From positions 1 to 47,010 of the forward strand of contig JAHDYE010000001.1 of NCBI GenBank assembly GCA_023383035.1: DNA of 47,010 bases, read 5' to 3'. Below the pieces are notes generated by a model. The model worked only from the letters and a program-made list of their open reading frames with translations, was not told the origin of the DNA and ran no database searches. Source of the stretch: Burkholderiaceae bacterium. GTDB taxonomy: Bacteria; Pseudomonadota; Gammaproteobacteria; Burkholderiales; Burkholderiaceae_E. The position numbers were made by a program, and so were the translations under genes. Shown here piece by piece: positions 24,528-44,541 of the stretch (positions are counted from its first letter, which is position 1; each line of letters starts with the position of its first letter).

Positions 24528-25343
24528 TCAGCCCGCGGCTTGCTTCTTCGTCATCCGCATCTCGGTGTAGCGTCCCAACCAGGAATTGACGCCGACGGCG
24601 AGCAGGAATACGACCAGCAGCAGCGCATACATGCGCGGCATATTGAAAGTCACGTAGGTCTGGATGACCGCATAACCCAAACCCTGGTTGGCGAGCTTGG
24701 TCTCGGCGAGCAGCGTGCCGACGATCGCGACCCCCAGACCGATACGGATGCCGTTGAGAACGGGAATCCGCATGGCGGGGATGAAGATCTTCGTGAACAT
24801 CTGGATAGCGCTGAGGCGGAAGCTGAGCCCGACGCGGATCAGCGTTGAATCCACCTGGCGCATCGCGCTCGCAACGCTGATGGCAACCGGAAAGAAGCAC
24901 GACAGTGCGCCCATCGCGACCTTGGACCCCATGCCGACACCGAACCACATGATCAGGATCGGGAAGAAGATGATCTTCGGCGTAGGACCCAGGTAGTAGA
25001 TCAGCGGCTCGAAGGCACCCCCGAGATAGCGGTTGCGCCCGAGTATGACGCCGACGAGGATGCCGCTTCCACCTCCGATCGCCAGCGCCAGCAGGACCTC
25101 CCCCGTCGTGACGGCGAGATGCCAATAGAAGCCGCGGTCGAAAAAGAGCAGCGTGAACTCCTTGGCGATCAGCGGCAGAGGCGGCACGACGTCGCGGTAA
25201 AGCAATCCCGATCGGGCAACCAATTCCCACGTGACGAGGATCGCCGCCAGGATTGCCACGCGCGTCATGATTACCGCCCGCGCTTCGTTGAACGCGGGGG
25301 TTGGGACCGGCTTCGCCGGTCCCAGTGCGGCAAGCCGCTGCAT
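24528..25343 (-). CDS. ABC transporter permease (SsuC/TauC-like)
   Basis: BPD inner-membrane domain; MQRLAALGP start at 25343 preceded by GGAGGAGAAATC. Confidence 0.88.
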   Translation of the reverse strand: MQRLAALGPAKPVPTPAFNEARAVIMTRVAILAAILVTWELVARSGLLYRDVVPPLPLIAKEFTLLFFDRGFYWHLAVTTGEVLLALAIGGGSGILVGVILGRNRYLGGAFEPLIYYLGPTPKIIFFPILIMWFGVGMGSKVAMGALSCFFPVAISVASAMRQVDSTLIRVGLSFRLSAIQMFTKIFIPAMRIPVLNGIRIGLGVAIVGTLLAETKLANQGLGYAVIQTYVTFNMPRMYALLLVVFLLAVGVNSWLGRYTEMRMTKKQAAG

Positions 25344-25369
25344 GATTTCTCCTCCAGGACTACCGTCGG

Positions 25370-26335
25370 TCACCGGCGCGGCGGAATCTGGATCAGTTCG
25401 TCGAGCTGTTCTTTGGTCAAAGGCTGCGCGGTGTACTTCAGCACGACCGCATCGCGAACGATGGTGTCCAGACCGACGATGCGATCCGGATTCAGCGCCT
25501 CTTTCGGGAAGAAGTCGTCTCGTGTACGCCGGGCGATCTCCAGCGGCACGCCGACGAAGTCTGCGTAGACCTTGAGCGCTTCGTCGCTGGCATACATCGC
25601 CTCCACCGTCTCGCGATAGGCAGCCATGTAGCGCTCGATCTGGTCCTTCTTGTTCTGCAGCACTGACGTATTCGTGATCAGCAGGCGCACGGTCTGGGTC
25701 TTGAAGGCCCTGGTGTCGTTGCCGGTGGCGATGACCCGAATCTCACCCTTGTTGAGCTGCTCCAGGCCGAAGGGAGGAGCCGACCAACCGACGTCGATCT
25801 GGCCCGACATGACCTGGGTGAGCGTGGGAGCGGGACCTCCGGTGGCCGTCAACCGGGGCTTGATGCCATTTTCCTGGGCGAAGGCGTTGACGATGCCATG
25901 CGTGGAAGAGCCGTTGGTCGAATAGGCGACCGTCCGACCGTCGAATTCCTTCAGCGTCTTGATGGGCGAATCGGCCTTCACGTACCAGAACAGATCCTGG
26001 CCGCCGGTGGTCTCTGCAGCGATGATGCGCACAGGAGCGCCTTTCGAGTAGGCCGACAGCGCCCCCATGATGCCGCCCGCGACTCCGATGTCGACGCTGT
26101 TCGAGAGCACGGCCTGCTGCGTCTCCCCGCCACCCTGCGTGTAGAGCAGCTGCAGTTCCAGGTTGTGCTTCTTGAAGATACCAAGGCGGCTGCCGATCTC
26201 CGACACCGAGGTGTCCCAGTTGCCGCGCTGGCCGACGGCGAGCTTGAGCCGATCCTGCGCCTGTGCCAGACCCGCACTCGAAGCTGCCATGACGACAACG
26301 CCAGCAGCGAACAAAAGCTGCTTCAGAATATTCAT
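25370..26335 (-). CDS. ABC transporter substrate-binding protein (NMT1/SsuA-like)
   Basis: Signal peptide MNILKQLLFAAGVVVMAASSAGLAQAQ; NMT1-like core (SVDIGVAGGIMGALSAYSKGAPVRIIAA). Confidence 0.88.
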   Translation of the reverse strand: MNILKQLLFAAGVVVMAASSAGLAQAQDRLKLAVGQRGNWDTSVSEIGSRLGIFKKHNLELQLLYTQGGGETQQAVLSNSVDIGVAGGIMGALSAYSKGAPVRIIAAETTGGQDLFWYVKADSPIKTLKEFDGRTVAYSTNGSSTHGIVNAFAQENGIKPRLTATGGPAPTLTQVMSGQIDVGWSAPPFGLEQLNKGEIRVIATGNDTRAFKTQTVRLLITNTSVLQNKKDQIERYMAAYRETVEAMYASDEALKVYADFVGVPLEIARRTRDDFFPKEALNPDRIVGLDTIVRDAVVLKYTAQPLTKEQLDELIQIPPRR

Positions 26336-26402
26336 TTGAATCCTCCTTGTAGTGATGTCCGGTTTCCGGCAAGCCGCCGGCAAACCGCTCCTCAGACCGC
26401 GC

Positions 26403-27395
26403 TCAGATCCTGAAAACCTCCAACGTAGACGGATGGAAAAGCTCTTCGATCGCCAGCTGGCGAGGCGAGAGACCTTGAGAATGGTGAGCCTTCAGGAAAG
26501 CATCGAGCGCATGGCGGTTCGGCCCGACCCCGTAAGGCCAGAACTCCTCGCCCATCAAATCCCGGGCCGACCGTAGTTGCTCCTCGACGAAAGGCAGCGT
26601 GACCTTCGTTGCAGAGGTATCACTCAACCGATCGAGCGCATCGTGCTTGGACTGTTCGAAGGCCTTGAGCAGTGCAGCCGGAAGCCACGGGTGTTCATCG
26701 ACCACCGTGCGACGGGCGCCGATCATGTGCATGATCGGAAATACCTTCGTGCGCCGATAGTAGTCCGTAGCGACAGATACCGGATCCGGAAAGAGCCGCA
26801 CGATATTGGGATGCCCGGCATCGAAAGACGAAGGCGAGCGTGGGCCGATGAAGCCGTCGATCTCGCCCGCGGCAAGCATCTGATTCAAGGATCGATCCGC
26901 AGGCGCCTGCTCCAAACGGATCTCGGACGGCAGCGACACCTGAATCTTCTCGGCGCGGCCCGGCTGCTCGATGCCGCCCCGCACCCAGATCACGTCCGAG
27001 GGCTTCACCCCGTAGTCGTCCTCCAGGAGGCTGCGAATCCAGACGCAGGCGGTGAGCTGATATTCAGGGCAACCGATGCGCTTGCCCTTCAGGTCCTTCG
27101 GCGTCTCGATCCCACGGTCGTTGCGAACGAAGATGCCTGAATGTCGGAAGGCTCGCGATACGAATGCCGGCACGCCGACATAGGGGTTCGTCCCTTGCGC
27201 AGTCTTCACCGTGAAGCTCGAAAGCGACGCTTCGCAGACGTCGAACTCGCCGTGCCTGAAGGCGCGAAAGAAGATCTCCTCCGGCCCCAGCTTCATGAAC
27301 ACCGGATCGACACCATCGATCCGAACTTCGCCGTCGAGCAACGGCCTGTTGCGGTCGTAGTCGCCGATCGCGATGGACAGACGGAGTTTCGACAA
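26403..27395 (-). CDS. PBP2-fold protein related to 4,5-dihydroxyphthalate decarboxylase (Pht5-like) / ABC substrate-binding protein without signal peptide
   Basis: KLRLSIAIGDYDRNRPLLDGEVRIDGVDPVFMKLGPEEIFFRAFRHGEFDVCEASLSSF...FRHSGIFVRNDRGI; TTG start at 27395 with GGAGGG upstream. Confidence 0.78.
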   Translation of the reverse strand: MSKLRLSIAIGDYDRNRPLLDGEVRIDGVDPVFMKLGPEEIFFRAFRHGEFDVCEASLSSFTVKTAQGTNPYVGVPAFVSRAFRHSGIFVRNDRGIETPKDLKGKRIGCPEYQLTACVWIRSLLEDDYGVKPSDVIWVRGGIEQPGRAEKIQVSLPSEIRLEQAPADRSLNQMLAAGEIDGFIGPRSPSSFDAGHPNIVRLFPDPVSVATDYYRRTKVFPIMHMIGARRTVVDEHPWLPAALLKAFEQSKHDALDRLSDTSATKVTLPFVEEQLRSARDLMGEEFWPYGVGPNRHALDAFLKAHHSQGLSPRQLAIEELFHPSTLEVFRI

Positions 27396-27496
27396 TGATC
27401 CCTCCGAGCGGTACCGATTGGTCGGACTCGAGTCACCCCGGCGACGCGCCCGGTGGAGACGAAGCGAACGCATCGCGCTCACGGCGACGACCTGCG

Positions 27497-28252
27497 TTAT
27501 CGTGCGGGTCGCAGCCAGCGTTCGACCCACTCCAGCACCGAGAACAGGACAACACTGACCAGAATCACGAAAACGATGGTGGCAAAGACGCCTGGAAGAT
27601 CGTAGCGTTCGGCAAGATCGTTGATCAGTTGGCCGAGCCCGCCGAAGTTGATCAGGAACTCGACGCCGATGAGGTTGATCAACGTGAAGATCAGTCCCAG
27701 GCGAATGCCGGTGAAGATCGTCGGAATCGACGCGGGGAACTGGATCTTCCAGAAGAGCTGCGAGGCGGTCAGGTTGTAGCTGTAACCCACGTTGAGCAGC
27801 GTCTTCCTGACGCCAAGGAATCCCTCGAGCGTCTTGAGTAAAGCCGGTGCGAGCCCCGCCACGAATCCCATCGCGACGATCGTCGCCGAGCTCCGGCCGA
27901 ATATGACGAGAAAGAGCGGATAGGCGAGCACGATCGGCGCAGCGGCGGCAGCCGCGATCCATGGCTCCATCGCCAGTCTGGCGATGCGGTGTCTGTGAAG
28001 CAGCATGCCGATGCCGATGCTGAAGCCGATGACCAGCAGGCTGGCGACAAGCGCCTCCACGCCGGTCACCAGCAGCCGATGCAGAAGCTGCTCCTCGGCG
28101 AACAGCCTGCGAAAGCTGAGGACAACGGCAGAAGGAAACGGGATGACGAACTGATTCAGCACCCCGATGCGCAGCATGAACTCGACGCCGCCGAGAAAAA
28201 TCACGACGCAACCGAGCCCGAATGCAGGGGGAGGAATCCTCGCGATTCGCAC
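27497..28252 (-). CDS. ABC transporter permease (SsuC/TauC-like)
   Basis: BPD-type permease; GTG start at 28252 just downstream of the ATPase stop. Confidence 0.85.
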   Translation of the reverse strand: MRIARIPPPAFGLGCVVIFLGGVEFMLRIGVLNQFVIPFPSAVVLSFRRLFAEEQLLHRLLVTGVEALVASLLVIGFSIGIGMLLHRHRIARLAMEPWIAAAAAAPIVLAYPLFLVIFGRSSATIVAMGFVAGLAPALLKTLEGFLGVRKTLLNVGYSYNLTASQLFWKIQFPASIPTIFTGIRLGLIFTLINLIGVEFLINFGGLGQLINDLAERYDLPGVFATIVFVILVSVVLFSVLEWVERWLRPAR

Positions 28253-28257
28253 GGCGT

Positions 28258-29145
28258 TCAGCCCCCCCTTAGCCGCGCAGTTTGCTCGGCTTCGGCCATG
28301 CCGCGCGATGCCTCCTCGCGCAGATCGTTCCAGATCTCCGCCACATGGCGGCCAAAGGCTTCGCTTCCGACGACATCGCCGGCGCGCGGACGCGGCAGAC
28401 GGATATCGACGATCCGCTTCACCCGGCCGGGTCGGAACGTCATGATGAGAACGCGGTCGGAGAGCTGCACCGCTTCGGTGATGTTGTGGGTGATGAGCAG
28501 CGTGGTCTGCCGCAACTCCTGCTGGATCTTGAGAACCTTGTCTCCGAGCAGCACGCGGGTCTGCTCGTCCAGAGCCGCGAACGGCTCGTCCATCAGCAGG
28601 ATCCTGGGCTCGAACACCAGCGTGCGGGCAATGGCAACGCGCTGGCGCATGCCGCCCGAGAGCTCGGACGGATAGCGCTGCTCGAAACCGGTCAGTCCGA
28701 CCAGGTCGATGAACCTGCGCGCGACGGCCTGGCGCTCGGCCTTGGAGACACCTTTGATCTCCAGCGGAAAGGCAACGTTGTCGATCACGGTGCGCCACGG
28801 AAAGGTCGACTCCTCCTGGAAGACCATGCCGATGGAGGCGTGAGGACCTGAAATTCGCTCGCCGCCGACAAGAACGTCGCCGTCGTAACCAGGTACGAGT
28901 CCGCCGAGGATGTTGAACACGGTCGACTTGCCGCAACCAGACGGACCGATGATCGATACGAACTCCCCTCGTCTGATCTCGAAGGACACGCCATCGACTG
29001 CGGTCACCGTGCCTTGACGCGTATCGAAACGCATCGAGACGTCCTTGATGACGAGGTCGATTTCATCTGCCGTGTCGGTGGCCAGATGCAGCTTCGCGGT
29101 CGATGCCCGCATGTCCTTGTCGTCCTCCGAATGGCTATCCGTCAT
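28258..29145 (-). CDS. ABC transporter ATP-binding protein (SsuB/TauB-like)
   Basis: GPSGCGKSTVFNILGGL, LSGGMRQRVAIARTLVFEPRILLMDEPFAALDEQTR. Confidence 0.92.
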   Translation of the reverse strand: MTDSHSEDDKDMRASTAKLHLATDTADEIDLVIKDVSMRFDTRQGTVTAVDGVSFEIRRGEFVSIIGPSGCGKSTVFNILGGLVPGYDGDVLVGGERISGPHASIGMVFQEESTFPWRTVIDNVAFPLEIKGVSKAERQAVARRFIDLVGLTGFEQRYPSELSGGMRQRVAIARTLVFEPRILLMDEPFAALDEQTRVLLGDKVLKIQQELRQTTLLITHNITEAVQLSDRVLIMTFRPGRVKRIVDIRLPRPRAGDVVGSEAFGRHVAEIWNDLREEASRGMAEAEQTARLRGG

Positions 29146-29195
29146 ACGATTGAGCGCGCAGCTGATCGCCGCTGTAGACAACGTCTGCATAGGGC

Positions 29196-30416
29196 CTACT
29201 CGAAAGCGCCCAGACGCTGATAGTGGTCATACTGTTCGGCGCTCAGGCCAAGCAGCTCGCAGAACACATAGGCGTTGTCGGCGCCGAGAAGCGGCGCGGC
29301 GCCCGTGACGTCACCGGGCGTGTCCGACAGATCGAATGCCGAGAAGTAGCAGGCCAGATCGCCCATCACGCCGTGACGCCGCCGGCGCCAGACGCGCCGA
29401 TGCAGCAGCTGCGGATCGGCGAACAAGTCGGCCATCGTGTTGACCGCATAGGCTCGCAATCCGGCCGACTGCAGAAGTGCCGCCGCTTCGGGCGCCTCCT
29501 GGTCCGCCGACCACTGCGCGACGATCTCACTGAGCTCCGCCTCGTGGCTCATGCGCGCTTCCAGCGATGCGAAGCGCGGATCTTTCGCCAGGCCCGGCCT
29601 TCCGAGGATCTCCGAGAACTGCTCGAACTCGCGATCGCTCCAGCAAGAAAGCGCCAGCCATCGCCCTCCCCGGCAGGGAAACGCGTCGTGGGGTGCGGCG
29701 CGTGGGTCGCGATTGTTCGCCCGCTGCGCCGTGGCCTGCGTGCTGTGGTACTCGTGCAAGGCGCTGGCAATGAACACCAGGCCGCTTTCGTACTGCGAAA
29801 GGTCGATCCAGGCGCCTCGTCCGCATCGCCGCTGCCGATCGAGTGCGGCCAGCACTGCGGAAGCGCCGAGCGACGATGCGATGAAGTCGATGTATGGCCC
29901 GTAGAGCAGCTGAGGAGGTCCATCCGGGCTGCCGGTGAGGCCGCAGAACCCGGCCAGCGCCGACAATTGCGAGCCGAACCCGGGCGTATGCGCTCGGGGG
30001 CCGCTCTGGCCCATGTTGCAGCTCGAGATCATCACCACGCCCGGATTCAGCTTACGCGCGGCTTCGTACCCCAGGCCTAGGCGCGTCATCACCTCGGGCC
30101 GCATGTTCTCCACGACGATGTCCGACCAGGCAATGAGCCGCCTTGCCATCTCGAGGCCCGCGTCGTTCTTCAGATCCAGCGTCACGGCACGCTTGGAGTC
30201 GTTGAACATTGCGAAGCATCCGCCCCGGTCGAGTCCGGGTCGTCCGTCCTTGAAGGGCGGATACTCCGCCCGGAAGCCATCGGGTCGACTGCGCGACTCC
30301 ACGTGAATGACCTTGGCGCCGAAGGACGCGAGCATCTTGCCGATATGCGGGCCGGCCGCGTAGGCGCCGAACTCGACGACCTTCACGCCGGACAGTGCGG
30401 TAGAGATGGCGCTCAT
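29196..30416 (-). CDS. CaiB/BaiF class III CoA-transferase, putative catalytic subunit (Asp present)
   Basis: SGVKVVEFGAYAAGPHIGKMLASFGAKVIHVES; GPYIDFIASSLGA with Asp177; RGAWIDLSQYE; start MSAIS overlaps upstream stop (ATGA). Confidence 0.9.
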   Translation of the reverse strand: MSAISTALSGVKVVEFGAYAAGPHIGKMLASFGAKVIHVESRSRPDGFRAEYPPFKDGRPGLDRGGCFAMFNDSKRAVTLDLKNDAGLEMARRLIAWSDIVVENMRPEVMTRLGLGYEAARKLNPGVVMISSCNMGQSGPRAHTPGFGSQLSALAGFCGLTGSPDGPPQLLYGPYIDFIASSLGASAVLAALDRQRRCGRGAWIDLSQYESGLVFIASALHEYHSTQATAQRANNRDPRAAPHDAFPCRGGRWLALSCWSDREFEQFSEILGRPGLAKDPRFASLEARMSHEAELSEIVAQWSADQEAPEAAALLQSAGLRAYAVNTMADLFADPQLLHRRVWRRRRHGVMGDLACYFSAFDLSDTPGDVTGAAPLLGADNAYVFCELLGLSAEQYDHYQRLGAFE

Positions 30417-31561
30417 CCGATGCTTCCGAATTCCGCGAGAAGTGAGGTGAAAGTCACCTCCTCGCCGGGTGCATGCCGAAGCGCAGCCCGCTCGCCGTCG
30501 ACGCGCGCGAAGCTTCCACAATGTCGCTGCGCCGTTCCGTTGCGATCCGCGATGTCCGCCCAGAACTCACGAGCGGCGAGTTGCGGGTCTTCAGCAATGT
30601 CGGCAACGGTGAACACCGGATAGCCGAGCATCTCGCGCCGGCTCGTTTCCTCCAGGAACTCGCGCTTCGAAATCGTGAGGAAGAAACGAGCGATCGGCTC
30701 CTCTAGCGCGTCCACCTCGGCCTGCGTGGCCAGCTTCGGATCGAAGCGCTTCCAGTCGACCGTTCTGAGCGCGCCGCGCGCTACACCCCGCTCGCGCATC
30801 CATTCCACCAGCTGCATGTTCGTCCGGCGCCCGGCCGGGCCGCCGTAAAGCACGAAATTGAGATAGCCGTCGAGGCAGGGCCAGAACGCCCGATAGCGCG
30901 CCCCCGTGATCGAGCGGCCGGTCACGTAGGCGCCGCATCGGCTCGGGTTGGTTCCCTCGATGTCCCAGAAGGCGGCTGCGTGCGACGACGCCAGGATGAC
31001 CGACGCCTGGGCCGAAACGTCCACCTGTTGTCCCACTCCGGCGACGGTGCGGTGTACGAGAGCCACGAGGGCACCGACCGCCGCCTGAGCACCGGCCCAG
31101 CCGTAGGACTGCGGCACCGTCACGCGTGTCGGCGGCCCGTCGGGCTCACCCGCCAGGGACATCGCCCCCCCGGCCGCCATCAGCTCGATGTCGGATGCCG
31201 ACCAGTCCGCACGCGGCCCTTCGCGTCCGAATGGCGTCACCGACACGTGAACGAGGCGAGGATTCAACGCGCGAAGGCGAGGCCAGCTCAATCGTCCGGC
31301 GAGCGGATCGCTTGCCTGCGACGACTCGATGAGCACGTCAGCATGTGCGAGGAGCTGGTCAAGCTGCGCCTGCCCGTCTTCCGTTGCAAGAGCGAGACGA
31401 AGCAGGCGTTTGTTGACATGGTTTGCCTGCCAATCGAAATCGTCGATACGGGCGTCCGGAGGTTCGATCCGGACGACGTCGGCGCCGAGGTCAGCGAGCA
31501 ACCGCCCGGCGAGCCAGCCGAGGCGGTTGCTCAGATCGAGAACGCGGTACCCGCTCAACAT
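30413..31561 (-). CDS. CaiB/BaiF class III CoA-transferase-like subunit lacking the expected catalytic Asp
   Basis: LSGYRVLDLSNRLGWLAGRLLADLGADVVRIEPP; Asp position reads QSYGWAGAQAAVGAL; GQQVDVSAQASV. Confidence 0.87.
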   Translation of the reverse strand: MLSGYRVLDLSNRLGWLAGRLLADLGADVVRIEPPDARIDDFDWQANHVNKRLLRLALATEDGQAQLDQLLAHADVLIESSQASDPLAGRLSWPRLRALNPRLVHVSVTPFGREGPRADWSASDIELMAAGGAMSLAGEPDGPPTRVTVPQSYGWAGAQAAVGALVALVHRTVAGVGQQVDVSAQASVILASSHAAAFWDIEGTNPSRCGAYVTGRSITGARYRAFWPCLDGYLNFVLYGGPAGRRTNMQLVEWMRERGVARGALRTVDWKRFDPKLATQAEVDALEEPIARFFLTISKREFLEETSRREMLGYPVFTVADIAEDPQLAAREFWADIADRNGTAQRHCGSFARVDGERAALRHAPGEEVTFTSLLAEFGSIG

Positions 31562-31580
31562 GGCGAGTTTTTGTCCGCGC

Positions 31581-33161
31581 CTACCGACCGGTTCGGGCAA
31601 GCGACAGCACCCAGCCCGCCATGCGGGACTTCATCGTCTCGATATCCTTCGTGCTGAAGAAGTCCTCCGGCTTCACGAGATCCACGCCGTACACCGGTCG
31701 ATGGAAGTCGCTCTCGTACCCGTAGGGCACGGTGGCGTCGATCCCCATGCCGCCCTCGAACAGCGTATTCGAAGCGGTCCACTGCTTGTCGCCCGAGGTC
31801 ATGCGCTCGGCGGGCATGAAGGTCTGGCCGCGGCCGCCCGGGATCGGATTGAGGATGTCCGTACGCGGATTCACGCGCGTCGTCAGGCACCACATGATGT
31901 CGTCCATCGAGTAGATGTCGACGTCCTCGCTGACCGCGATCGCCAGGCGCATTCCCTGCGAGCACGACAGGATCGCCCCCAGGAAGTTGCGCTGCCAGCC
32001 TTCTTCGATCTGGTTGCGCTTCTTGACCTGGATGATGCATCCGCCCCAGTCGGTCATGCAGTACGGGATATGCACGTTCTGCACGATGCCGGGCTGCAGC
32101 CGCTCGCACAGCGCGAAGATCGCCGACTCGCGCACCGACGTGTCGATGTTCGAGTCGTCGGCCGTGTGCACGCCGAGCGGGAAGATGATGGGCTTGCTCT
32201 CGCGCTTGCGCATCGTGATCGCCGTGACGTGGAACGTGGGCGCCTTGTAGGCCTTGCCCATGTACCCCGCCCACTCCGGATGGAAATGGAAGCGACCCTG
32301 GATGTCCGCCTTCTCGGACTCGGCCGTCTCGTAGCGCTTGTCGCGCGGATGCAGGTAGCCCTCGAGGACGTACTCGGCGTCGGCCAGCGTGTACGCGTCG
32401 ATCGTCTTGCATTTCACGAGCCGGATCGGCGAGCCCTGGATCGCCCCCGCGATGCCGACCTCGTCGCATCCCTTGGGCAGGATCGCGTAGTCGAAACCCG
32501 CGCCCGCCACGTACGTGCACGCCGGCGGCACGCCGAAGCACATGGTCAGCGGAATCGGCTGGTCGTCCTTGTAGTGCTTGGTCATCACCTGCCACATGTG
32601 CGACCCGGGCGAGATCTGGAAGGTGCCGACGTTGCCCCAGCGGAAGTTCATCCGGTTGTAGCCGATGTGGCTGCCGCCGTCGAAGTAGTCGCCGATGACG
32701 CACGAGATGCCCGAGCCGATCGTCAGCTCGGTTTCCAGCGGCGTATGGCGGATCGCCGTCAACCACTTGTTGACATCGAGGTCGTCGGTGATCACATCCT
32801 GGTGCACCGGCGCCTCCTCCGAGGAAATGATCACCGACTGCAGCGGATGATCGATCGCATGGGCGACCTTCTTCACGCGCTCGAGCGAATCCTTCCAGCC
32901 GAACATGTCCTCGACGACGCGGATGTCGCCGAAGAGGTTGGTGATCGCGCGCGCGTGCGGCATGCCCTTCACGTTGTTGAACAGCATCGGCAGGCTGCCG
33001 TCGAAGATCTTCTGCAGGCCGGTGATCTCGAGATCGGGGTTGACCTCCTTGTCCGTCTCGATCAGATAGCCTTTCGAGCGGAACCACTCGACCGTCGAAC
33101 GCAAGCTGGTCACGTCCTTGTTTTCGACTTTCGTTTTACGTTTTTCGACCGAATCGTTCAC
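31581..33161 (-). CDS. UbiD-family (prenyl-FMN) decarboxylase, candidate phthaloyl-CoA-type decarboxylase
   Basis: 526 aa; AIAVSEDVDIYSMDDIMWCLTTRVNPRTD and FHVTAITMR match UbiD family; partnered with UbiX. Confidence 0.88.
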   Translation of the reverse strand: MNDSVEKRKTKVENKDVTSLRSTVEWFRSKGYLIETDKEVNPDLEITGLQKIFDGSLPMLFNNVKGMPHARAITNLFGDIRVVEDMFGWKDSLERVKKVAHAIDHPLQSVIISSEEAPVHQDVITDDLDVNKWLTAIRHTPLETELTIGSGISCVIGDYFDGGSHIGYNRMNFRWGNVGTFQISPGSHMWQVMTKHYKDDQPIPLTMCFGVPPACTYVAGAGFDYAILPKGCDEVGIAGAIQGSPIRLVKCKTIDAYTLADAEYVLEGYLHPRDKRYETAESEKADIQGRFHFHPEWAGYMGKAYKAPTFHVTAITMRKRESKPIIFPLGVHTADDSNIDTSVRESAIFALCERLQPGIVQNVHIPYCMTDWGGCIIQVKKRNQIEEGWQRNFLGAILSCSQGMRLAIAVSEDVDIYSMDDIMWCLTTRVNPRTDILNPIPGGRGQTFMPAERMTSGDKQWTASNTLFEGGMGIDATVPYGYESDFHRPVYGVDLVKPEDFFSTKDIETMKSRMAGWVLSLARTGR

Positions 33162-33197: not shown

Positions 33198-33803
33198 TCA
33201 GACTGGACCGGCTACCGCCGGTTGACGCTGCGATTGCGTGTGCATGGCTCCGTCCCAGCGTCGCGCGAACGGGGCTGGAATGCCGAACTGGTCGAGGACC
33301 CGCGCGACGATGTGATCGACCATGTCGTCGAGCGTTTCGGGGTGGTTGTAGAAGGCCGGCACCGGCGGCATGATCGTCACGCCCATCCGTGAAAGCCTGA
33401 GCAGGTTCTCGAGATGCAGGTCGCTCAGCGGCGTCTCGCGCGCCACGAGCAGCAGCTTGCGGCGCTCCTTCAGGATGACGTCCGCGGCGCGGTGTATCAG
33501 GTGGTCGCCTGCGCCCTGGGCGATCGCCGCGACCGTACGCATCGAGCACGGGATGATGACCATGCCGTCGGTGACGAACGAGCCCGACGAGACCGACGCC
33601 CCCATGTTCCCGGCGTCGTGCACCACCGAGGCGAGCTCGCGCACCTGTTTGACGCTCGAACGCGTTTCATGCCCGATCGTCTGTATCGCCCATTTGCTCA
33701 GGATCAGGTGGGTTTCGACGTCGGTGCCCTGTAGCGCCTCCAAAAGCCGAATTCCGAACACGGCGCCTGTCGCGCCCGTCATGCCGACGATGAGTCTTCT
33801 CAT
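33198..33803 (-). CDS. UbiX/Pad1-type flavin prenyltransferase
   Basis: RLIVGMTGATGAVFGIRLLEAL; IPCSMRTVAAIAQGAGDHLIHRAADVILKERRKLLLVARETPLSDLHLENLLRLSRMG. Confidence 0.94.
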   Translation of the reverse strand: MRRLIVGMTGATGAVFGIRLLEALQGTDVETHLILSKWAIQTIGHETRSSVKQVRELASVVHDAGNMGASVSSGSFVTDGMVIIPCSMRTVAAIAQGAGDHLIHRAADVILKERRKLLLVARETPLSDLHLENLLRLSRMGVTIMPPVPAFYNHPETLDDMVDHIVARVLDQFGIPAPFARRWDGAMHTQSQRQPAVAGPV

Positions 33804-34013: not shown

Positions 34014-34811
34014 ATGACAACCGATTCAGACAGCCATCAGCGGGCCGGCACACAAAGCATCGAACGCGCGTCGCTCGTCATGCGCGTCATCGCCTCACGC
34101 AACGGCCTGGGCATGCGCCTCGTCGATGTGACACGCTGCGCGCAGCTGGAACAGTCGACCGCGCACCGGATCCTCAAGTGCCTGATCGCCGAAGGCATGG
34201 TGAGGCGCGATCCGGAGACGCGCCGCTACCACCTAGGGCACCAGATCTTCGAGCTCGGCCTCGCCGCGGCCTCACAGTTCAACCTGCACACCATTTGCCA
34301 TCCGTCGCTCGTTCGCCTGTCGGAGAAGACGGGCGACACGGTGTTCCTCACGGTGCGCAGCGGTTTCGATACCGTGTGTCTGGATCGCAGGGAAGGCGCT
34401 TTTCCGATCAGGACGCTGACGCTCGACGTCGGCACTCGACGGCCGCTGGGCGCCGGCGCAGGCGGCGTGGCACTGCTGATGCTCCTGCCCGAGCGCACCG
34501 TCGAGGAGATCGTCAACGCGAACGCGCTTCGGCTCGGCGGCTACGGAGATCTCACCGTGCCGGCTGTCCTGAAGCTGGTGAACCAGTCCAGACAGCTCGG
34601 CTACGCGCTGAACGACAGCCACATCACGCCGGGCGCCACCTCGGTCGGCATGGCGATCCGTTCGCGATACGGTGTGCCGTTCCTCGCGATCAGCATCGGA
34701 GCCATCTCGAGCCGGATGGAGAGCAACCGCCAGCGCGAGCTCGCCGCCCTCTTGAGGGAAGAGGTCGAAGTACTCGAACGATTGTTGAGTGAAAGCGCAC
34801 ACCCCCTCTAG
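34014..34811 (+). CDS. IclR-family transcriptional regulator
   Basis: 265 aa; TQSIERASLVMRVIASRNGLGMRLVDVTRCAQLEQSTAHRILKCLIAEGMVRRD, IclR effector domain. Confidence 0.93.
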   Translation: MTTDSDSHQRAGTQSIERASLVMRVIASRNGLGMRLVDVTRCAQLEQSTAHRILKCLIAEGMVRRDPETRRYHLGHQIFELGLAAASQFNLHTICHPSLVRLSEKTGDTVFLTVRSGFDTVCLDRREGAFPIRTLTLDVGTRRPLGAGAGGVALLMLLPERTVEEIVNANALRLGGYGDLTVPAVLKLVNQSRQLGYALNDSHITPGATSVGMAIRSRYGVPFLAISIGAISSRMESNRQRELAALLREEVEVLERLLSESAHPL

Positions 34812-36249: not shown

Positions 36250-38151
36250 ATGCTGCTGCGACGCTATGAGATGCCTTGGCGCCGCGCCTTCGAGGCCTAT
36301 GGGGGAGCGGGATGGCTGATCGCGGCGCTCTACTTTGCCGCCCTCCCGCTCATTGGTTCGGTGCCACCGCCTGCGGCCGTCTCTCTGGCGGCAGGCTGCC
36401 TGCTGATGGGGCTGCGACGACTGACGCAGGCGGTGCGAGTGCTGCGCTTGCGAAGCGCTCTTGCGGGCCGGCGCATCCAGGTGATCGCGCCACAGGATCT
36501 TGAACGACTTTACGCCGACCGCGCGCAGGTATTCCTCGGCTTCGGCTTCGAGTGGCGGCCCGTACATGCGCAACGGCTCTACGAGCTCTCGAAGATCAAC
36601 TACCGCGACTTCATCGTCCCGCGCTGGCTGCAGTTCGCGCTCGGCCAAGGCGCCAATGCGCAGCCGGATGCCGAGATCGGCCTGCCGTACATCCACGGCG
36701 TCGAGCCCACGGAGCAACCGCTGTTCCGGCCCCTGCAGAACTTCGAAGGCGGCACCCTGCTCGTGGGTACGACGCAATCGGGCAAAGGGGTCGCACTGGC
36801 CAACCTGATCACTCAGGCCGTGCGCCGCGGTGACGTGGTGATCGTGATCGACCCGAAGAACAGCCGGCGCCTGAAGCGTGTCGTCGAGCGCGCCTGCGCG
36901 GACTACCGGGACGCGGACACCTTCATGGAATTCCATCCGGCATTCCCCGAACGGGGCGTGCGCCTGGACTTCACCTTCAATTGGCAAAAACCGACCGAGA
37001 TCGCCTCGCGCATCCAGGCCATCATGCCACCGGACACGGCGGGCGCCTTCAGCGCTTTCGGCTGGGATGCGGTCAACGTGGTGGTCCAGGGCTTGGTCGA
37101 ACTCGAGGAGCGTCCCAACCTCATCAAGCTGACCAAGTACATCGAGGGCGGCATCGAGCCGGTGCTGGAGATGTCGCTGCGCCGCTTCTACGAGCGCCTC
37201 CTCGGCAATGCCTGGCGCGACCAGCAAGAGATGCGCAGGCTGCTGCACGAGGCGCATAAGGGCAATATACGCCGGCCTTCCGAAGCCGCGAGCGCCGACT
37301 TGCTGGCCTTCGTTGCCTACTACGAGCACCACGTCGCGCAGAACCAGCGCAGCAAGGTGCTCGACGCGCAGGTGCGCACCTTCCGGCACAACCGCGAGCA
37401 CTACCAGAAGATCACGGCCAACCTGTTGCCCGTGTTGTCGATGCTGACTTCCGGCGATCTGGGCCGCAGCCTGTCCCCCGATCCGTTCGACGCCGACGAC
37501 ATACGTCCGATCATGAACTTCGAGAAGATCGAGCGCGGCGGGCACGTGCTGTACATGTGCCTCGATGCCCTGCCCGACCCCTCGGTGGCGTCGGCGATCG
37601 GCGCGCTGGCGCTGGCCGACCAGGCGGCTCGCGCGGGGATGCGCTACAACCTGGGCGCCTATCAGCGCATTTCGCTCTTTGTCGACGAGGTCGCCAACGT
37701 CATCAACCAGCCACTGATCGAGATCCTCAACAAGGGAGCCGAAAGCGGCATCTTCGCGACCTGCGCGATGCAGACGCTGGCCGACCTCGCAAGGCGGCTG
37801 GGCAGCGAGGACGCAGCGCGCATGGCGCTGGGCAACCTGAACAACCTGATCGCGCTGCGCACGAAGGACAGGCCGACGCAGGATTTCGTCGTGGAGACCT
37901 TCGGCAAGACCGCCATCCATACCGTGCGCGTCGGTCTGAGCCACGGTGCCGATGCCCATCTGGGCGACTTCTCGTCGAGCTACTCGACGCAGCTCACCGA
38001 GAGCTTCGAGGAGGTGGTCCCCGCGGACATGCTCGGAAAGCTGCCGAACCTGCAGTATTTCGCGTCGGTCTCGGGTGGACGCATCATCAAGGGGCGCTTT
38101 CCGATCATCGACCCGGATGCCGGGCCTGCGTCGCCGAAGCGCATCCCATGA
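36250..38151 (+). CDS. traD: Conjugative coupling factor TraD (SXT/TOL-type T4CP)
   Basis: Walker A LLVGTTQSGKGVA, VIVIDPKNSRRLK, Walker B ISLFVDEVANVI; two N-terminal TM segments. Confidence 0.93.
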   Translation: MLLRRYEMPWRRAFEAYGGAGWLIAALYFAALPLIGSVPPPAAVSLAAGCLLMGLRRLTQAVRVLRLRSALAGRRIQVIAPQDLERLYADRAQVFLGFGFEWRPVHAQRLYELSKINYRDFIVPRWLQFALGQGANAQPDAEIGLPYIHGVEPTEQPLFRPLQNFEGGTLLVGTTQSGKGVALANLITQAVRRGDVVIVIDPKNSRRLKRVVERACADYRDADTFMEFHPAFPERGVRLDFTFNWQKPTEIASRIQAIMPPDTAGAFSAFGWDAVNVVVQGLVELEERPNLIKLTKYIEGGIEPVLEMSLRRFYERLLGNAWRDQQEMRRLLHEAHKGNIRRPSEAASADLLAFVAYYEHHVAQNQRSKVLDAQVRTFRHNREHYQKITANLLPVLSMLTSGDLGRSLSPDPFDADDIRPIMNFEKIERGGHVLYMCLDALPDPSVASAIGALALADQAARAGMRYNLGAYQRISLFVDEVANVINQPLIEILNKGAESGIFATCAMQTLADLARRLGSEDAARMALGNLNNLIALRTKDRPTQDFVVETFGKTAIHTVRVGLSHGADAHLGDFSSSYSTQLTESFEEVVPADMLGKLPNLQYFASVSGGRIIKGRFPIIDPDAGPASPKRIP

Positions 38152-38768
38152 TCCGGGCGGTCGCAATCGTTTCGCTGCTCGTGCTGCTGGTCCTCGTTCT
38201 CTACGTGCCGTCCGCGCACCCGCCCTCGCGGTTCCTCGACCAGTTGCGCAGCGAGCACGACATGGCCGTCACGTTCTGGGGCGCCGAGTCAGCCTACCGG
38301 ATTCTGGACCGCGCCATGCAGCTGCAATCCGACGCGGCCGCCGTCAGCTCGCTTTCATCGCCGAACATGCGCGGGCCCGGGGCCGTCGACGGCGCGGTCT
38401 CCGTCGAGATGGCCTCGGTCAGCCAGCGGCTGTTCGGCAACCCCTACTTCCGCTCGGTCGACGCGCTGCTGGTGCTCGCGAGCTACCGGCTCACGACCCT
38501 GCTCGAATGGTTGTATTGGCTCCTGCCCCTGGTGATCGTCGCGGGAGTCGATGGCGGTCTGGTTCGGGTGATCCGAGCCAAGGAGTTCGTGCAGCACGAT
38601 CCGGAGATGTTCGCGCTGTGGTGCTCGCTGCTGATCATCACCGCTTGCGCGACCGTGATCGCGTTCGTGCTTCCCGTGGCTGTCCATCCCGTGGCACTGG
38701 CCTGCTCGCCGATCGCGATGGCGGCGTTGCTCGACCTTGCCATCATGAATTTCCATCTCCGCGCCTGA
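38148..38768 (+). CDS. ICE-type membrane protein, DUF4400/TIGR03747-like
   Basis: ATG overlaps traD stop (ATGA); 206 aa with N- and C-terminal TM helices; FWGAESAYRILDRAM, DGGLVRVIRAKEFVQHDPE. Confidence 0.8.
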   Translation: MIRAVAIVSLLVLLVLVLYVPSAHPPSRFLDQLRSEHDMAVTFWGAESAYRILDRAMQLQSDAAAVSSLSSPNMRGPGAVDGAVSVEMASVSQRLFGNPYFRSVDALLVLASYRLTTLLEWLYWLLPLVIVAGVDGGLVRVIRAKEFVQHDPEMFALWCSLLIITACATVIAFVLPVAVHPVALACSPIAMAALLDLAIMNFHLRA

Positions 38769-38913
38769 TCCCTCGCGTCGCCGAAGCCCACTGATCACGA
38801 AACACCGCCAAGAAGCGCGCCATTGCGGGGCGACGCAGATGCACAGACGCCCTACCCTTCATCCATGCGCTCACGATCGGTTCGCCATCTCCCGTGACCC
38901 GAGGACAGACGTC

Positions 38914-39414
38914 ATGTCGACATCCATGCCGAACACCAGCCATGCAGCACGCGCTGACTTGAGTGCCGCCGCGCCTAGTGACGTCGTCGAGACCCGGCTG
39001 TGGATGGAGGAGCACATGTGGCTGTATGCGCTTCTGCGCAGCAGCGACAACGTTGCGCCCACCTTCCGCTTTCCGGATCTCCTCAGCGCCTGCGTGGCGA
39101 TCGTGTTCGATCGTGACGATGCCGCCGAACGCATCTTCGGCTTCCTGGGAACGTCGCTGGTGCTGCGTGCGCCGACCACGCCAAGGCGACGCGAGTCGCT
39201 ATGGCGCCCTCAGTACGAGCTCCTGCATGACCTGCAGTGCTCGCCGGCGAACAAGCATCCCAACCCGAAGTTCCAACTCGACCAGCTCACCACCGCCTGC
39301 GTGGCGCTGTGCCGACAGGAGGGTGAATCGGGCGCCGCCGTGCTGCGGCAGGCGCGTCGCAACATGGTGCAGCGGCACGCGAGCGCCCAAGGCGCGTCGC
39401 GATACGCGCGCTGA
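38914..39414 (+). CDS. Hypothetical protein within the transfer module
   Basis: 166 aa from MSTSMPNTSHAARADLS; codirectional with tra genes; no family recognised. Confidence 0.6.
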   Translation: MSTSMPNTSHAARADLSAAAPSDVVETRLWMEEHMWLYALLRSSDNVAPTFRFPDLLSACVAIVFDRDDAAERIFGFLGTSLVLRAPTTPRRRESLWRPQYELLHDLQCSPANKHPNPKFQLDQLTTACVALCRQEGESGAAVLRQARRNMVQRHASAQGASRYAR

Positions 39415-39568
39415 CGAGTGAACTGAGCACGCGGCGCTGCGCCGCCACCCGCACATACCCTGCCGGGCCCGCGCCCGGCCTGTCTGCGCAAGACCCTGAC
39501 CGGCCCGCCGGTCCTCACCTCGTGCGCCCTCTATCGCGGGCCGATCGTGAACGCCTCCGGGATCTTCG

Positions 39569-40102
39569 ATGCACTTGGCCGTCGTCGTCGTTTTTGTGGT
39601 GACGCTGGTGCTGGCTGTGCCGGCCGGCGCAACGCCGTGCTGGAACACGGCCGCCCAGCGCTACGGCGTCGCGCCGGAGCTGCTCTACGCCGTCGCTCGC
39701 ACCGAATCCAATCTGAACCCGCGCGCGATGAACCGAACCCACGTGCAGCGTACCGGCAGCTACGACATCGGTCTGATGCAGATCAACAGCCGGCACCTGC
39801 CCAGGCTCGCCGCTTTGGGCATCCGTGAGGCGGACTTGTTCGATCCCTGCGTGAACCTGCAGGTCGGCGCCTGGCTGCTGGCCGACAGCTTCTCGCGCCA
39901 CGGCGTGACGTGGCACGCCGTCGGCGCCTACAACGCCGCCTGCAGCCAGCTCAAGGGCGACGACTGCACACGGGCGCGAGCGACCTATGCCTGGAAGGTC
40001 TACCGCCACCTACCCGGAGCCGACGGTGGACGGCCCACGCCTGCGGCCAGGCCGCCATCGGGATCGCTGACGCGTCACCTGCATGTGAAGGTGGCGCAAT
40101 GA
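39569..40102 (+). CDS. Lytic transglycosylase (SLT domain, VirB1/IagB-like)
   Basis: Signal peptide; YAVARTESNLNPRAMN catalytic Glu; SYDIGLMQINSRHLPRL; GAYNAAC. Confidence 0.9.
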   Translation: MHLAVVVVFVVTLVLAVPAGATPCWNTAAQRYGVAPELLYAVARTESNLNPRAMNRTHVQRTGSYDIGLMQINSRHLPRLAALGIREADLFDPCVNLQVGAWLLADSFSRHGVTWHAVGAYNAACSQLKGDDCTRARATYAWKVYRHLPGADGGRPTPAARPPSGSLTRHLHVKVAQ

Positions 40103-40800
40103 AGCGCGCCTCGATGACGTGCGCATGGCGCCGCGGCGGCATCGCAGCATGCCTGGCCATGACGGGCTGCGCGGCGCCAGCACCCACACCTGTCGCTCCC
40201 GACGCGCCGACGGGCAGTCGGCCGGCATTGCACCTGGCCCAGCTGGGACACGGGCGTCTTGCGGCGTTCGCCTGGTGCCTGGGCGACGACTGCCCGGAGC
40301 GCAGCCCCAAGACGCTCGCGCCACCGCCGGCGCCAACGACAGTCGCGAGGCTGGATCCGGTGCGACCGCTGGCATCGGCGGACGGCATCGCCAGGGGCGA
40401 GGAGCTGGCAGCTCTTGCACCGCGCCCCAGCAGGTCGGTGTCCCAGCAGGCGGCGCAGACCCTGTCCGTCCACTTCCACCTTGCGAGCGCGCGCCTGGAT
40501 AGTGCAGCGCGCGAGGCGCTTCGCGCGATCGTCCCCCAGCTCAAGCAGGCAAACAAAGTCCGCCTGAGCGGGCGCACCGACAGCACCGGTTCGGCGTCAA
40601 CAAACGACCTGCTCGCCAGGGAGCGCGCCGAAGCGGTGCGCCGAGAACTGCTCGCCCTGGTTCCCGGCATCGCCCCGATCGTGACCATCGACGCGCAGGG
40701 CGCCTGCTGCTTCGTCGATACCAACGACAGCGCGGCCGGGCGCGCGCGCAATCGTCGCGTCGACATCCTCCACCGCATCGAGCTCGACGACCTGCCCTGA
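40099..40800 (+). CDS. OmpA-like domain lipoprotein
   Basis: Lipobox-like LAMTGCAAP; VHFHLASARLDSAAREAL...VRLSGRTDSTGSASTNDLLARERAEAVRREL...GRARNRRVDI; overlaps SLT stop. Confidence 0.85.
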   Translation: MKRASMTCAWRRGGIAACLAMTGCAAPAPTPVAPDAPTGSRPALHLAQLGHGRLAAFAWCLGDDCPERSPKTLAPPPAPTTVARLDPVRPLASADGIARGEELAALAPRPSRSVSQQAAQTLSVHFHLASARLDSAAREALRAIVPQLKQANKVRLSGRTDSTGSASTNDLLARERAEAVRRELLALVPGIAPIVTIDAQGACCFVDTNDSAAGRARNRRVDILHRIELDDLP

Positions 40801-40861
40801 CATCCGCCACCACCCGCTCTCACCGGATCCGCCACCCACCTTCCTCTGCTGGAGCTTTCAC

Positions 40862-41224
40862 ATGGGCACTGCCATTCTCTCTACCTCCACCCCGAAGTCG
40901 CTGCGTTCGCCCGCGCGCACGCTCACCGGCTTCTTTGCACTGCTGGTCGCCGCCTTCATCGGCCTGGCGCTCGCGTTCCCCTCCCACGCGCTGGATCTCG
41001 TGGCCTTCACCGGCATCACCGGCCCATTGACTTCCGCACTCGTTCAGATCGCGGACCTGGGGCCCGGCATCAAGGCCCTGGTGGGCTTCGTCGGGTTCGT
41101 GGTGGCGCTGATCTCGTTGTCTGCGCTGCGCAACTTCGGGCCCGTGCTGTTCTACGTCGGATTGGCGATCTTCGCCGCCGTCGGCCTCGTGATCGCCGGC
41201 GCAATCATGGGCGCCGTCGTCTGA
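40862..41224 (+). CDS. Putative conjugative pilin (TraA-like)
   Basis: 120 aa; basic N-terminus, TM, possible cleavage after PSHA, then two hydrophobic helices; directly upstream of traL as in F. Confidence 0.65.
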   Translation: MGTAILSTSTPKSLRSPARTLTGFFALLVAAFIGLALAFPSHALDLVAFTGITGPLTSALVQIADLGPGIKALVGFVGFVVALISLSALRNFGPVLFYVGLAIFAAVGLVIAGAIMGAVV

Positions 41225-41253
41225 GCGCAGCTCGCGCCATCGCGCAGGCCACC

Positions 41254-41553
41254 ATGCAAACAGACACCTACATCCCCCGGCGTCTGGACGACAGCTGGAA
41301 GATCGGCTTCTGGGACGTCGACGTTGCGGCGCCGATCCTCTTCATGTTCTTCATCGGCTACCTGTCGTCGAGCAAGGGGGCATTCGCAGTCTGCCTCGCC
41401 GTGGGCATTGCGGTGTCGCGCTGGATCGCGCGGCTGAAGGCGGACAAGCACCCCGCCTTCGCGATTCACTGGCTGTACTGGCACTTGCCGACCAATCCCC
41501 TCACGTCGATGCGCGCGACGCCGCCGTCGCACATCCGCCGCATGGTCGGCTGA
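41254..41553 (+). CDS. traL: F-type conjugative transfer protein TraL
   Basis: YIPRRLDDSWKIGFWDVDVAAPILFMFFIGYLSSSK; HWLYWHLP. Confidence 0.9.
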   Translation: MQTDTYIPRRLDDSWKIGFWDVDVAAPILFMFFIGYLSSSKGAFAVCLAVGIAVSRWIARLKADKHPAFAIHWLYWHLPTNPLTSMRATPPSHIRRMVG

Positions 41554-41568
41554 GCCGCAGGCACTGCC

Positions 41569-42135
41569 ATGGATTTCGATCGGCTCAGCGGCGACCTCAA
41601 GGATCTGCGCCGGCGCAACCGGAGCCTCGCCCTGGCGGTCGGTGCCATGGCGCTGAGCCTCGTCCTGACGCTGGCCATCATCGTCAGCCTGCTCGGAACG
41701 GTGCGCACCGTGGTCGTTCCTCCGTCGCTCAACAAGACCTTCTGGGTCGCGGGCGACCGGGCATCGAGCGAGTACCTCGAGCAGATGGGCAGCTTCATCG
41801 CCTGGCTGATCCTCGACGTCACCCCGAGCACCATCGACTGGAAGAAGGACATCCTGCTCGGCTATGTCGATCCCCAGCAGTACGGCGCGCTCAAGACGCG
41901 CCAGGAGATCGAGGCCGAGCGCCTGAAGCGCATCAACGCGGCCACCGCCTTCGCCCCGCAGCAGCTCGTGGCCAGCGAGGACACCCAGTCCCTGCTCGTG
42001 CTCGGACGACTGCGCACCCTCGTCAACGGCTACGAGACGGCCAATGACCTGAAGGCCTACCGCATCGACTTCGGCTACGCCGGAGCACGCATGCACATCG
42101 TCGGGTTCAACGAGGTGCCCTATGCGGTACGGTGA
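41569..42135 (+). CDS. traE: F-type conjugative transfer protein TraE
   Basis: 188 aa; N-terminal TM, VVPPSLNKTFWVAGDRASSEYLEQMGSFIAWLILDVTP. Confidence 0.93.
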   Translation: MDFDRLSGDLKDLRRRNRSLALAVGAMALSLVLTLAIIVSLLGTVRTVVVPPSLNKTFWVAGDRASSEYLEQMGSFIAWLILDVTPSTIDWKKDILLGYVDPQQYGALKTRQEIEAERLKRINAATAFAPQQLVASEDTQSLLVLGRLRTLVNGYETANDLKAYRIDFGYAGARMHIVGFNEVPYAVR

Positions 42136-43114
42136 GACGGCGTCCGCATCCCGCCCGCGCGTTGGCTCCTTGCACCCGGGCAACGCGTCGTCTCGCGCGA
42201 GACGCCAGCCCACTGACCCTGCATCGATACAGAGTCTTTGCGATCGCGCGCCTGCGCGCCGTCGCTGGGATCCGCTAGCCCCTTGCGCACGCCGCATCCT
42301 TGCCGTCACGTCACTGTCCTTCGGCCTGCAGGCGCATGCACTGCAGGTCTTGGACGCGAGCGATGGCGTCGCGGTCGAGGCCATCGTGTCGCGCAGCGAG
42401 CCCACCCGCATCCGCATCGAGGGCGCGCCGATCACCGACGTCTTCGGCAACATCCATTCGAGCCACTGCGCTGCGGGCCCCTCGCTGCCTGCGGCACCCG
42501 CCACCCCCGGCGTTCCAGCGCCGGCCGCAGGTTTTCAGGCTGTCGTGAATCCGGCGGGCGACGTGGTCGTCGAGTGCGACCGCGACAAGGGCGAGATCTA
42601 CATCCGTCCGGTGGGCGAGGCGTCGCGCCCGATCAACCTCTTCGTGTCCTCTGCGACGGCGACCTACACGCTGCTGCTGCGTCGCGCTGATACTCCGGCC
42701 GACACCCTCGTCATCCGCGACAAGACGCCGCGGGCGCTGCGCCCTCTCGCGCCCGAGCCCGCAACGGCCGGCCCGGCCCCGAACCATGTGCGCACGATGA
42801 AGGCGCTGCTGGTCGCGATGGCCTCGGACCGCATACCGCCCGACGTGCGCGTCGAGGAGACCTCCCGAGCCGTACAGCTCTGGGCCGAAGCGCGCTTCAC
42901 GCTGTTGCGGCTGTACGAAGGCCGCGGATATGTAGGCGAGAAGTACACGCTGCAGAACATCAGCCAGGCGCCGATGGTGCTGGCCGAGCAGGAATTCGAC
43001 CGCCCCGACAGCCGTACGGGCGGCGAAGTCGCAGGCATCGCCATCGAGCACCACAACCTGCGCCCGGGCGAGACCACCAGCGTCTATGTCATCCGCCGGG
43101 CAGGCGCGCCATGA
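42122..43114 (+). CDS. traK: F-type conjugative transfer protein TraK (secretin-like)
   Basis: ALQVLDASDGVAVEAIVSRSEPTRIRIEGAPITDVFG; position between traE and traB; true start uncertain. Confidence 0.85.
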   Translation: MRYGETASASRPRVGSLHPGNASSRARRQPTDPASIQSLCDRAPARRRWDPLAPCARRILAVTSLSFGLQAHALQVLDASDGVAVEAIVSRSEPTRIRIEGAPITDVFGNIHSSHCAAGPSLPAAPATPGVPAPAAGFQAVVNPAGDVVVECDRDKGEIYIRPVGEASRPINLFVSSATATYTLLLRRADTPADTLVIRDKTPRALRPLAPEPATAGPAPNHVRTMKALLVAMASDRIPPDVRVEETSRAVQLWAEARFTLLRLYEGRGYVGEKYTLQNISQAPMVLAEQEFDRPDSRTGGEVAGIAIEHHNLRPGETTSVYVIRRAGAP

Positions 43115-44541
43115 ACGCGTCCTCTCCCAGCCCGGCATCGCGCCCCGGACACGGCCGGCCGCCCGGCCACGTCGGGCGCGGCGTGCTGGATCCCCTGACG
43201 CCGCGCCAGCGCCAGTTCGCGCTGCTCGGCGCCCTCCTCGCCGGCGGCGTCGGCCTGCTCTGGCTGGTCTTCAGCTTCGCCGGCTCCGGGACTTCGGCCC
43301 ACGGTACTCGTGCGGCCCCGACGCGGCCCGGCGACGTGACCAACATCGGCGTGCTCGCGCCCGGCGGCCAGGTGAATCCGGTCGATCAATGGGTCGGCAC
43401 CGCCGGTCGCAAGCTCGCGCAATACGAGACGGAGCGCGAGGAGCAGAGCCGACTCAACAAGGACCGGCAGGCCTTCGAAGCCCGCACGATGCAGCGTTTC
43501 GCCGAACTCGAGCAGCGCCTGACCGCGAATCAGCGAGCACCGACGCTACCTCCTCCTGCGCCTGCCCAATTCGCGCCGCCGCCCCCCGCGCCAGCCCCGG
43601 CAACACCCGCGATGATGCCTCCGGCCGCCGGCCTGCCGCCCGGTCCGCCACCTTCGAGGCCGGGGATGGGCGCGATGCCCGCTGGCGCCCCGGTCCTGCA
43701 ACCGGCCAGCGCACCTGCGCCGGTGATCTCGCGCGTGACCTTGGCCGAGCGCTCGCGGCCGACGGGCGTGGCGGGGCCGCACGGCGCATCGGCCCGGGAG
43801 CACGCGAGCGACTCATCCTCCACCGCACGGACCGTCACGACCTTCCTGCCGGTGAGCTTCACGCGCGGGATTCTGTTGGGGGGCCTGGACGCCCCCACCG
43901 GTGGGCAGTCCCAGTCCAACCCGCACCCGGTGTTGATCCGCCTGTCGGACAACAGCGTGCTGCCCAACCAGTTCCGTGGCGAGTATCGAGAGTGCTTCGT
44001 CGTGGCCGCGGGCTACGGCGACATCAGCTCGGAGCGTGCGTACCTGCGCACCGAGAACCTCTCCTGCGTGCGCGCCGATGGTGCGACGCTCGAGGTCCGA
44101 ATCCAGGGCAGCGTCTACGGCGAAGACGGCAAGGTGGGGATGAGGGGGCGCCTCGTCACCAAGCAGGGCCAGATGCTCGCCAACGCGCTGCTCGCCGGCG
44201 TGGTCAGCGGCATCAGCCAGGGACTGTCCACGGCCAACACCACCTACAGCACCTCGGCGCTGGGAACGATCGCGAGCACGGACAGCAACGCCGAAGCCTA
44301 CCGCGCAGGCCTGGGGCAAGGCATAGGCAAGGCCCTTGACCGCCTCGCCCAGTACTACATCCGCCTGGCCGAGAACACGTTCCCGGTGATCGAGGTCGAC
44401 GCCGGCCGCCAGATCGATGTGGTCATCACCAAGGGCGCGCGCATCGACGTACCCATGGCGGCGTCCATCGCCCGCAGCACCCGACTCGCGCGTTCGCCCG
44501 AGTTCCGCTACCTGGAGGTTACCGATGATGGCGACTACTGA
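43111..44541 (+). CDS. traB: F-type conjugative transfer protein TraB (VirB10-like)
   Basis: Single N-terminal TM, Pro-rich linker, [77 protein letters not shown]. Confidence 0.93.

Follow-up and report, generated by a model that had tools for sequence, protein, structure and literature searches.

A predicted phthaloyl-CoA decarboxylase gene of the UbiD family and its active-site residues in a Burkholderiaceae bacterium

In the described route of phthalate degradation, a CoA transferase forms phthaloyl-CoA, which is then converted to benzoyl-CoA by phthaloyl-CoA decarboxylase (PCD), a UbiD-like enzyme that uses prenylated FMN (prFMN), and UbiX genes occur in all known phthalate clusters (PMC13040137). 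The prFMN and UbiX dependence of the pathway is also backed by PMC6644310. Solved structures of PCD are available (8pmk, 8oz5 and 8p02), and plasmid 2 of Aromatoleum aromaticum EbN1 carries two copies, WP_011255025 and WP_011255033, which are 99.4% identical; the latter has been called the A. aromaticum phthalyl-CoA decarboxylase (PMC7976604). On this plasmid (L096/L097) the two copies have different neighbours, namely CoA-transferases and a TRAP transporter in one case and an ABC transporter and an IclR-family gene in the other, and transposases are found nearby. More distant members of the UbiD family are Aspergillus niger Fdc1 (4za4), Escherichia coli UbiD (5m1c) and AroY (5o3m, 5o3n, 5ny5), which have a Glu-Arg-Glu/Asp triad in common; Glu289 is the proposed catalytic acid of AroY (PMC5656893), and the Fdc1 triad consists of Arg173, Glu277 and Glu282 (PMC5818171).

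The phthalate operon and its relatives

The stretch of DNA analysed here, hereafter the window, has 47,010 nucleotides. The UbiD-family assignment made in a preliminary description of one of its reading frames (Table 1) was borne out, as the minus-strand product of 526 residues contains the three UbiD Pfam domains UbiD_N (PF20695), UbiD (PF01977) and UbiD_C (PF20696), all far over the cut-off. In a phmmer search of the PDB the whole length of the protein matched the phthaloyl-CoA decarboxylases 8pmk (1126 bits) and 8oz5/8p02 (1125 bits), with AroY/protocatechuate decarboxylase as the next-best group at 149 bits; a PHROGs search gave no match. Identity to the two EbN1 proteins is 88.6-90.6%. 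The window protein is thus a full-length ortholog of the known PCDs, from which it diverges by about 10%, and it has the same motifs, HIGYNRM and FHPEWAGYMG, and the same operon partners. The gene almost certainly encodes the PCD of the phthalate-to-benzoyl-CoA pathway, an ordinary and previously characterised type of enzyme whose identity is not new, and it would be a further copy of the key enzyme in the anaerobic breakdown of phthalate, a plasticizer residue.

Table 1. Features of the window (positions on the forward strand; residues are numbered in the UbiD-family protein)
Feature	Position	Strand	Basis
Predicted phthaloyl-CoA decarboxylase gene (pcd), UbiD family, prFMN-dependent	31581..33161	-	526 aa, GTG start; phmmer and EbN1 identity
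His165 codon, canonical metal-ligand Asn position	32667..32669	-	multiple alignment
Arg170 codon, predicted catalytic Arg (Fdc1 Arg173 counterpart) in HIGYNR	32652..32654	-	conservation, hhalign, phmmer offset
Gln182 codon, residue taken for a lost Arg; Fdc1 residue 185 counterpart	32616..32618	-	phmmer range pairing 182 with 185
Glu278 codon, candidate first triad Glu, in longer loop	32328..32330	-	invariant 80/80; alignments
Glu296 codon, predicted catalytic acid (Fdc1 Glu282, AroY Glu289 counterpart)	32274..32276	-	conservation and alignments
UbiX family flavin prenyltransferase (makes prFMN)	33198..33803	-	NCBIfam TIGR00421 250 bits, over cut-off; 76% to EbN1 UbiX
Class III CoA-transferase subunit without catalytic Asp (BbsE-like)	30413..31600	-	Pfam CoA_transf_3; 70% to WP_011255034
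Class III CoA-transferase subunit with conserved Asp (BbsF-like)	29196..30521	-	Pfam CoA_transf_3; 71% to WP_011255035
NitT/TauT-type ABC transporter genes and 4,5-dihydroxyphthalate decarboxylase-like gene	24528..29190	-	Pfam ABC_tran, BPD_transp_1, NMT1
ABC ATPase	28258-29190	-	Pfam
ABC permease	within 27497-28936	-	Pfam
4,5-dihydroxyphthalate decarboxylase-like gene, inside ABC-transporter cluster	about 26403-27374	-	452 bits to solved 9jp7
ABC binding protein	25370-26383	-	Pfam
Second ABC permease	24528-25373	-	named by sequence look and position alone
IclR-family regulator, divergent from operon	34014..34811	+	Pfam; kept beside pcd in many relatives
Conjugation block	36250-44541	+

The order of the operon, ubiX-pcd-CaiB-CaiB, is that of EbN1, with partner genes that are each 70-76% identical; it is also found in many MAGs and in L003 from A. 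evansii KB740, a strain reported to use phthalate (PMC6644310). WP_011255034 and WP_011255035, the EbN1 counterparts of the two CoA-transferase subunits, belong to the phthalate cluster of that strain. The conserved Asp of class III CoA-transferases is the catalytic residue. It is kept in one window subunit, in the sequence YIDF, and the corresponding position of the other reads Q-S-Y; in EbN1, too, one subunit has the Asp and the other does not. The best match of both window subunits is the benzylsuccinate CoA-transferase BbsEF (9fn0), which likewise pairs a CaiB-type subunit that has the conserved Asp with another that lacks it; however, the substrate of BbsEF differs and the similarity is at family level only.

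On this model, the two subunits would transfer CoA from a donor, which is succinyl-CoA in characterised clusters, to phthalate, and UbiX would supply prFMN. The decarboxylase would bind the unstable phthaloyl-CoA over prFMN and release CO2, yielding benzoyl-CoA, through an ordinary UbiD active site made up of Arg170, the acid Glu296 and, as first acid, probably Glu278 on a longer loop.

The operon of the window is adjoined by an ABC transporter and a 4,5-dihydroxyphthalate decarboxylase-like gene, and so differs from the EbN1 cluster that has a TRAP transporter next to it. 4,5-Dihydroxyphthalate is part of an aerobic phthalate route. These neighbours would suit a PCD-like enzyme acting on another CoA ester, such as a substituted phthaloyl-CoA, with the same active site. 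This is very unlikely, considering that the motifs are nearly identical, that identity to characterised PCD reaches 89-91%, that both CoA-transferase subunits are orthologous at 70-71%, and that the second EbN1 PCD copy also adjoins an ABC transporter. Phthaloyl-CoA is therefore the expected substrate, and the guess of a CoA-thioester substrate made in the preliminary description is very probably right in view of the orthology to PCD.

The catalytic arginine

The same description had read the active site as degenerate. The sequence NVGTFQ was taken for the N-x-G-x-Y-R motif of canonical UbiDs, so that Gln182 would replace the catalytic Arg; the first Glu was likewise regarded as lost, and an altered mechanism was suggested. 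The sequences quoted are indeed where they were said to be (NVGTFQ at residues 177-182, QGRFHFHPEW from 288 and EDVDIYSMDD from 412), NVGTFQ does resemble the canonical motif, and Gln is present in the column of residue 182 in 76 of 80 PCD-like sequences of a multiple alignment. Nevertheless, this column varies (Met in three sequences, Asn in one), while Arg170 is found in all 80 and is aligned with an Arg in the four canonical paralogues included.

Further alignments led to the same residue. The phmmer alignment to Fdc1 pairs residue 182 with Fdc1 185 and not with 173, which, if no gap intervenes, places Fdc1 Arg173 on Arg170; in the phmmer alignment to AroY, GYNRM stands opposite TIHRL, again with Arg170 on an Arg. 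Profile-profile comparison with hhalign, using 15 PCD-like proteins against seven canonical UbiDs from the same genome, set HIGYNR opposite NLGIYR.

The spacing of the metal site agrees with these alignments. In canonical UbiDs the metal-binding Asn is followed by the Arg at +5 and by the metal-binding His at +23, as with N168, R173 and H191 of Fdc1, where N168 and H191 are the metal ligands. The metal-binding His here is His188, which lies 23 residues after residue 165 and 11 after Asn177. Since His188 is the canonical metal-binding His, the motif must begin at residue 165 (H165-I-G-Y-N-R170) and not at Asn177, and this start alone is compatible with the spacing.

Thus, according to three agreeing alignment routes, the catalytic Arg predicted from sequence is Arg170 and has not been lost, and NVGTFQ is by the same comparisons a chance look-alike 12 residues downstream of the true motif. 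The motif had been read 12 residues too far along, the very shift of alignment that the preliminary description had named as fatal to its reading. A replacement of the catalytic Arg by Gln182, together with loss of the first Glu and an altered mechanism, is hardly credible; the absence of Glu from the usual position five residues before the catalytic acid also speaks for it, and is taken up below. With Arg170 and Glu296 present and invariant, an altered mechanism has no support, and the proposed mutant Q182R would add a second Arg opposite Fdc1 residue 185 and not restore the catalytic one. No UbiD protein without a catalytic Arg was therefore found here, which corrects a misreading of the active site. 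The view that the protein is not a dead enzyme fared better, and from its sequence it would be a living UbiD enzyme.

An AroY mutant described as "Arg181" (PMC5656893) was considered as evidence and dropped, as this position falls on no Arg when the AroY chains are numbered from Glu289 and Arg188. In that numbering the AroY Arg aligned to Arg170 would be Arg171.

The acids and the metal site

The last acid of the triad, Glu296, had been regarded as retained, and so it is: it is invariant (80/80), hhalign matches it to the second of the canonical UbiD acids and phmmer to AroY Glu289, and it is the counterpart of Fdc1 Glu282. The claim that the first Glu is missing holds in one respect only. At the usual spacing the window protein has Phe291, in a variable column (F/T/Y/H/A in relatives), but the canonical first Glu is matched by Glu278, which is invariant; Gln288, which had been put forward for this place, was aligned with that first Glu in none of the alignments made. 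Glu278 stands opposite the E of the canonical EGP sequence (hhalign) and opposite a Glu of AroY (phmmer), both alignments crossing a gapped loop. The first Glu of Fdc1 lies five residues ahead of the catalytic Glu, as opposed to about 18 in the window PCD, whose loop ahead of Glu296 exceeds that of canonical UbiDs by about 13 residues. Judged from alignment across this loop, the triad is probably complete as Glu278-Arg170-Glu296.

Within this identification, it could still be that the first Glu is truly absent, with a different helper to Arg170 and Glu296, or that its place is taken by Glu281 or Glu283, which are conserved as well in the longer loop. We consider this rather unlikely, since hhalign and phmmer pick Glu278 independently and since the triad is present in AroY (PMC5656893), the nearest solved relative outside PCD. 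AroY belongs to the same UbiD fold family and also has a longer loop ahead of its catalytic Glu. It differs from the window PCD in that its substrate is a free acid and not a CoA ester, and its catechol-binding Arg188 corresponds to Ser187 here. An AlphaFold model of the window protein, built with 15 relatives, was poor (mean pLDDT 48) and was set aside.

The metal-site Asn of Fdc1 and UbiD is replaced by His165 in the window PCD. In this column the paralogues have Asn, and the 80 PCD-like sequences are divided between His (38) and Asp (42), two states that a single branch of the tree separates (support 87/94, 99% of bootstrap trees). His188 and Glu234 are both invariant. Together with these, His165 would form a set of two His and one carboxylate. 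The title of a paper by Mergelsberg (2017), listed among the references of PMC13040137, calls the Thauera PCD K+- and Fe2+-dependent, and we infer a link between this set and Fe2+. It is possible, though less than probable, that the His165 set explains the Fe2+ dependence of PCD and that a 28-row group with Asp decarboxylates another aryl-CoA with a different metal.

Genes of this Asp group mostly occur without UbiX and CoA-transferase neighbours. In three of the four members examined (L049, L071 and L038) they are adjoined by acyl-CoA synthetase genes, and in the fourth (L063) the next gene belongs to the phosphoglucomutase family. For these neighbourhoods a choice of genes based on GC3 replaced ORF clustering, which was confounded by shadow ORFs of the high-GC DNA. 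The PCD-like proteins of L049, L071 and L038 are about 69-76% identical. A PCD-like contig filed as Klebsiella pneumoniae (L055) has a long branch in the tree, where it clusters with MAGs of Betaproteobacteria, and may be mis-binned.

Genomic setting of the operon

No ortholog of the window PCD was found in 17 genomes of the same genus, in which the best match has 30% identity; within the order, one genome carries an ortholog at 79% identity. A conjugation block begins 0.4 kb past a TetR gene and encodes TraD/TrwB-like, SLT transglycosylase, TraL, TraE, TraK and TrbI/TraB-like proteins. Its position beside the phthalate operon suggests an integrative conjugative element or a plasmid. Transposons beside PCD genes have been reported (PMC8269228), and it is likely that pcd was acquired horizontally.

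As to the fate of benzoyl-CoA, the aerobic benzoyl-CoA epoxidase BoxB was not found in the genome, which is 83% complete. Another contig of this incomplete genome (C34, L094:6121-10419) carries a four-gene cluster resembling the class I benzoyl-CoA reductase BcrCBAD, in which all genes score below the curated cut-offs; it may encode a divergent aryl-CoA reductase. Near this cluster are CaiB genes and a gene resembling those of Rieske oxygenases.
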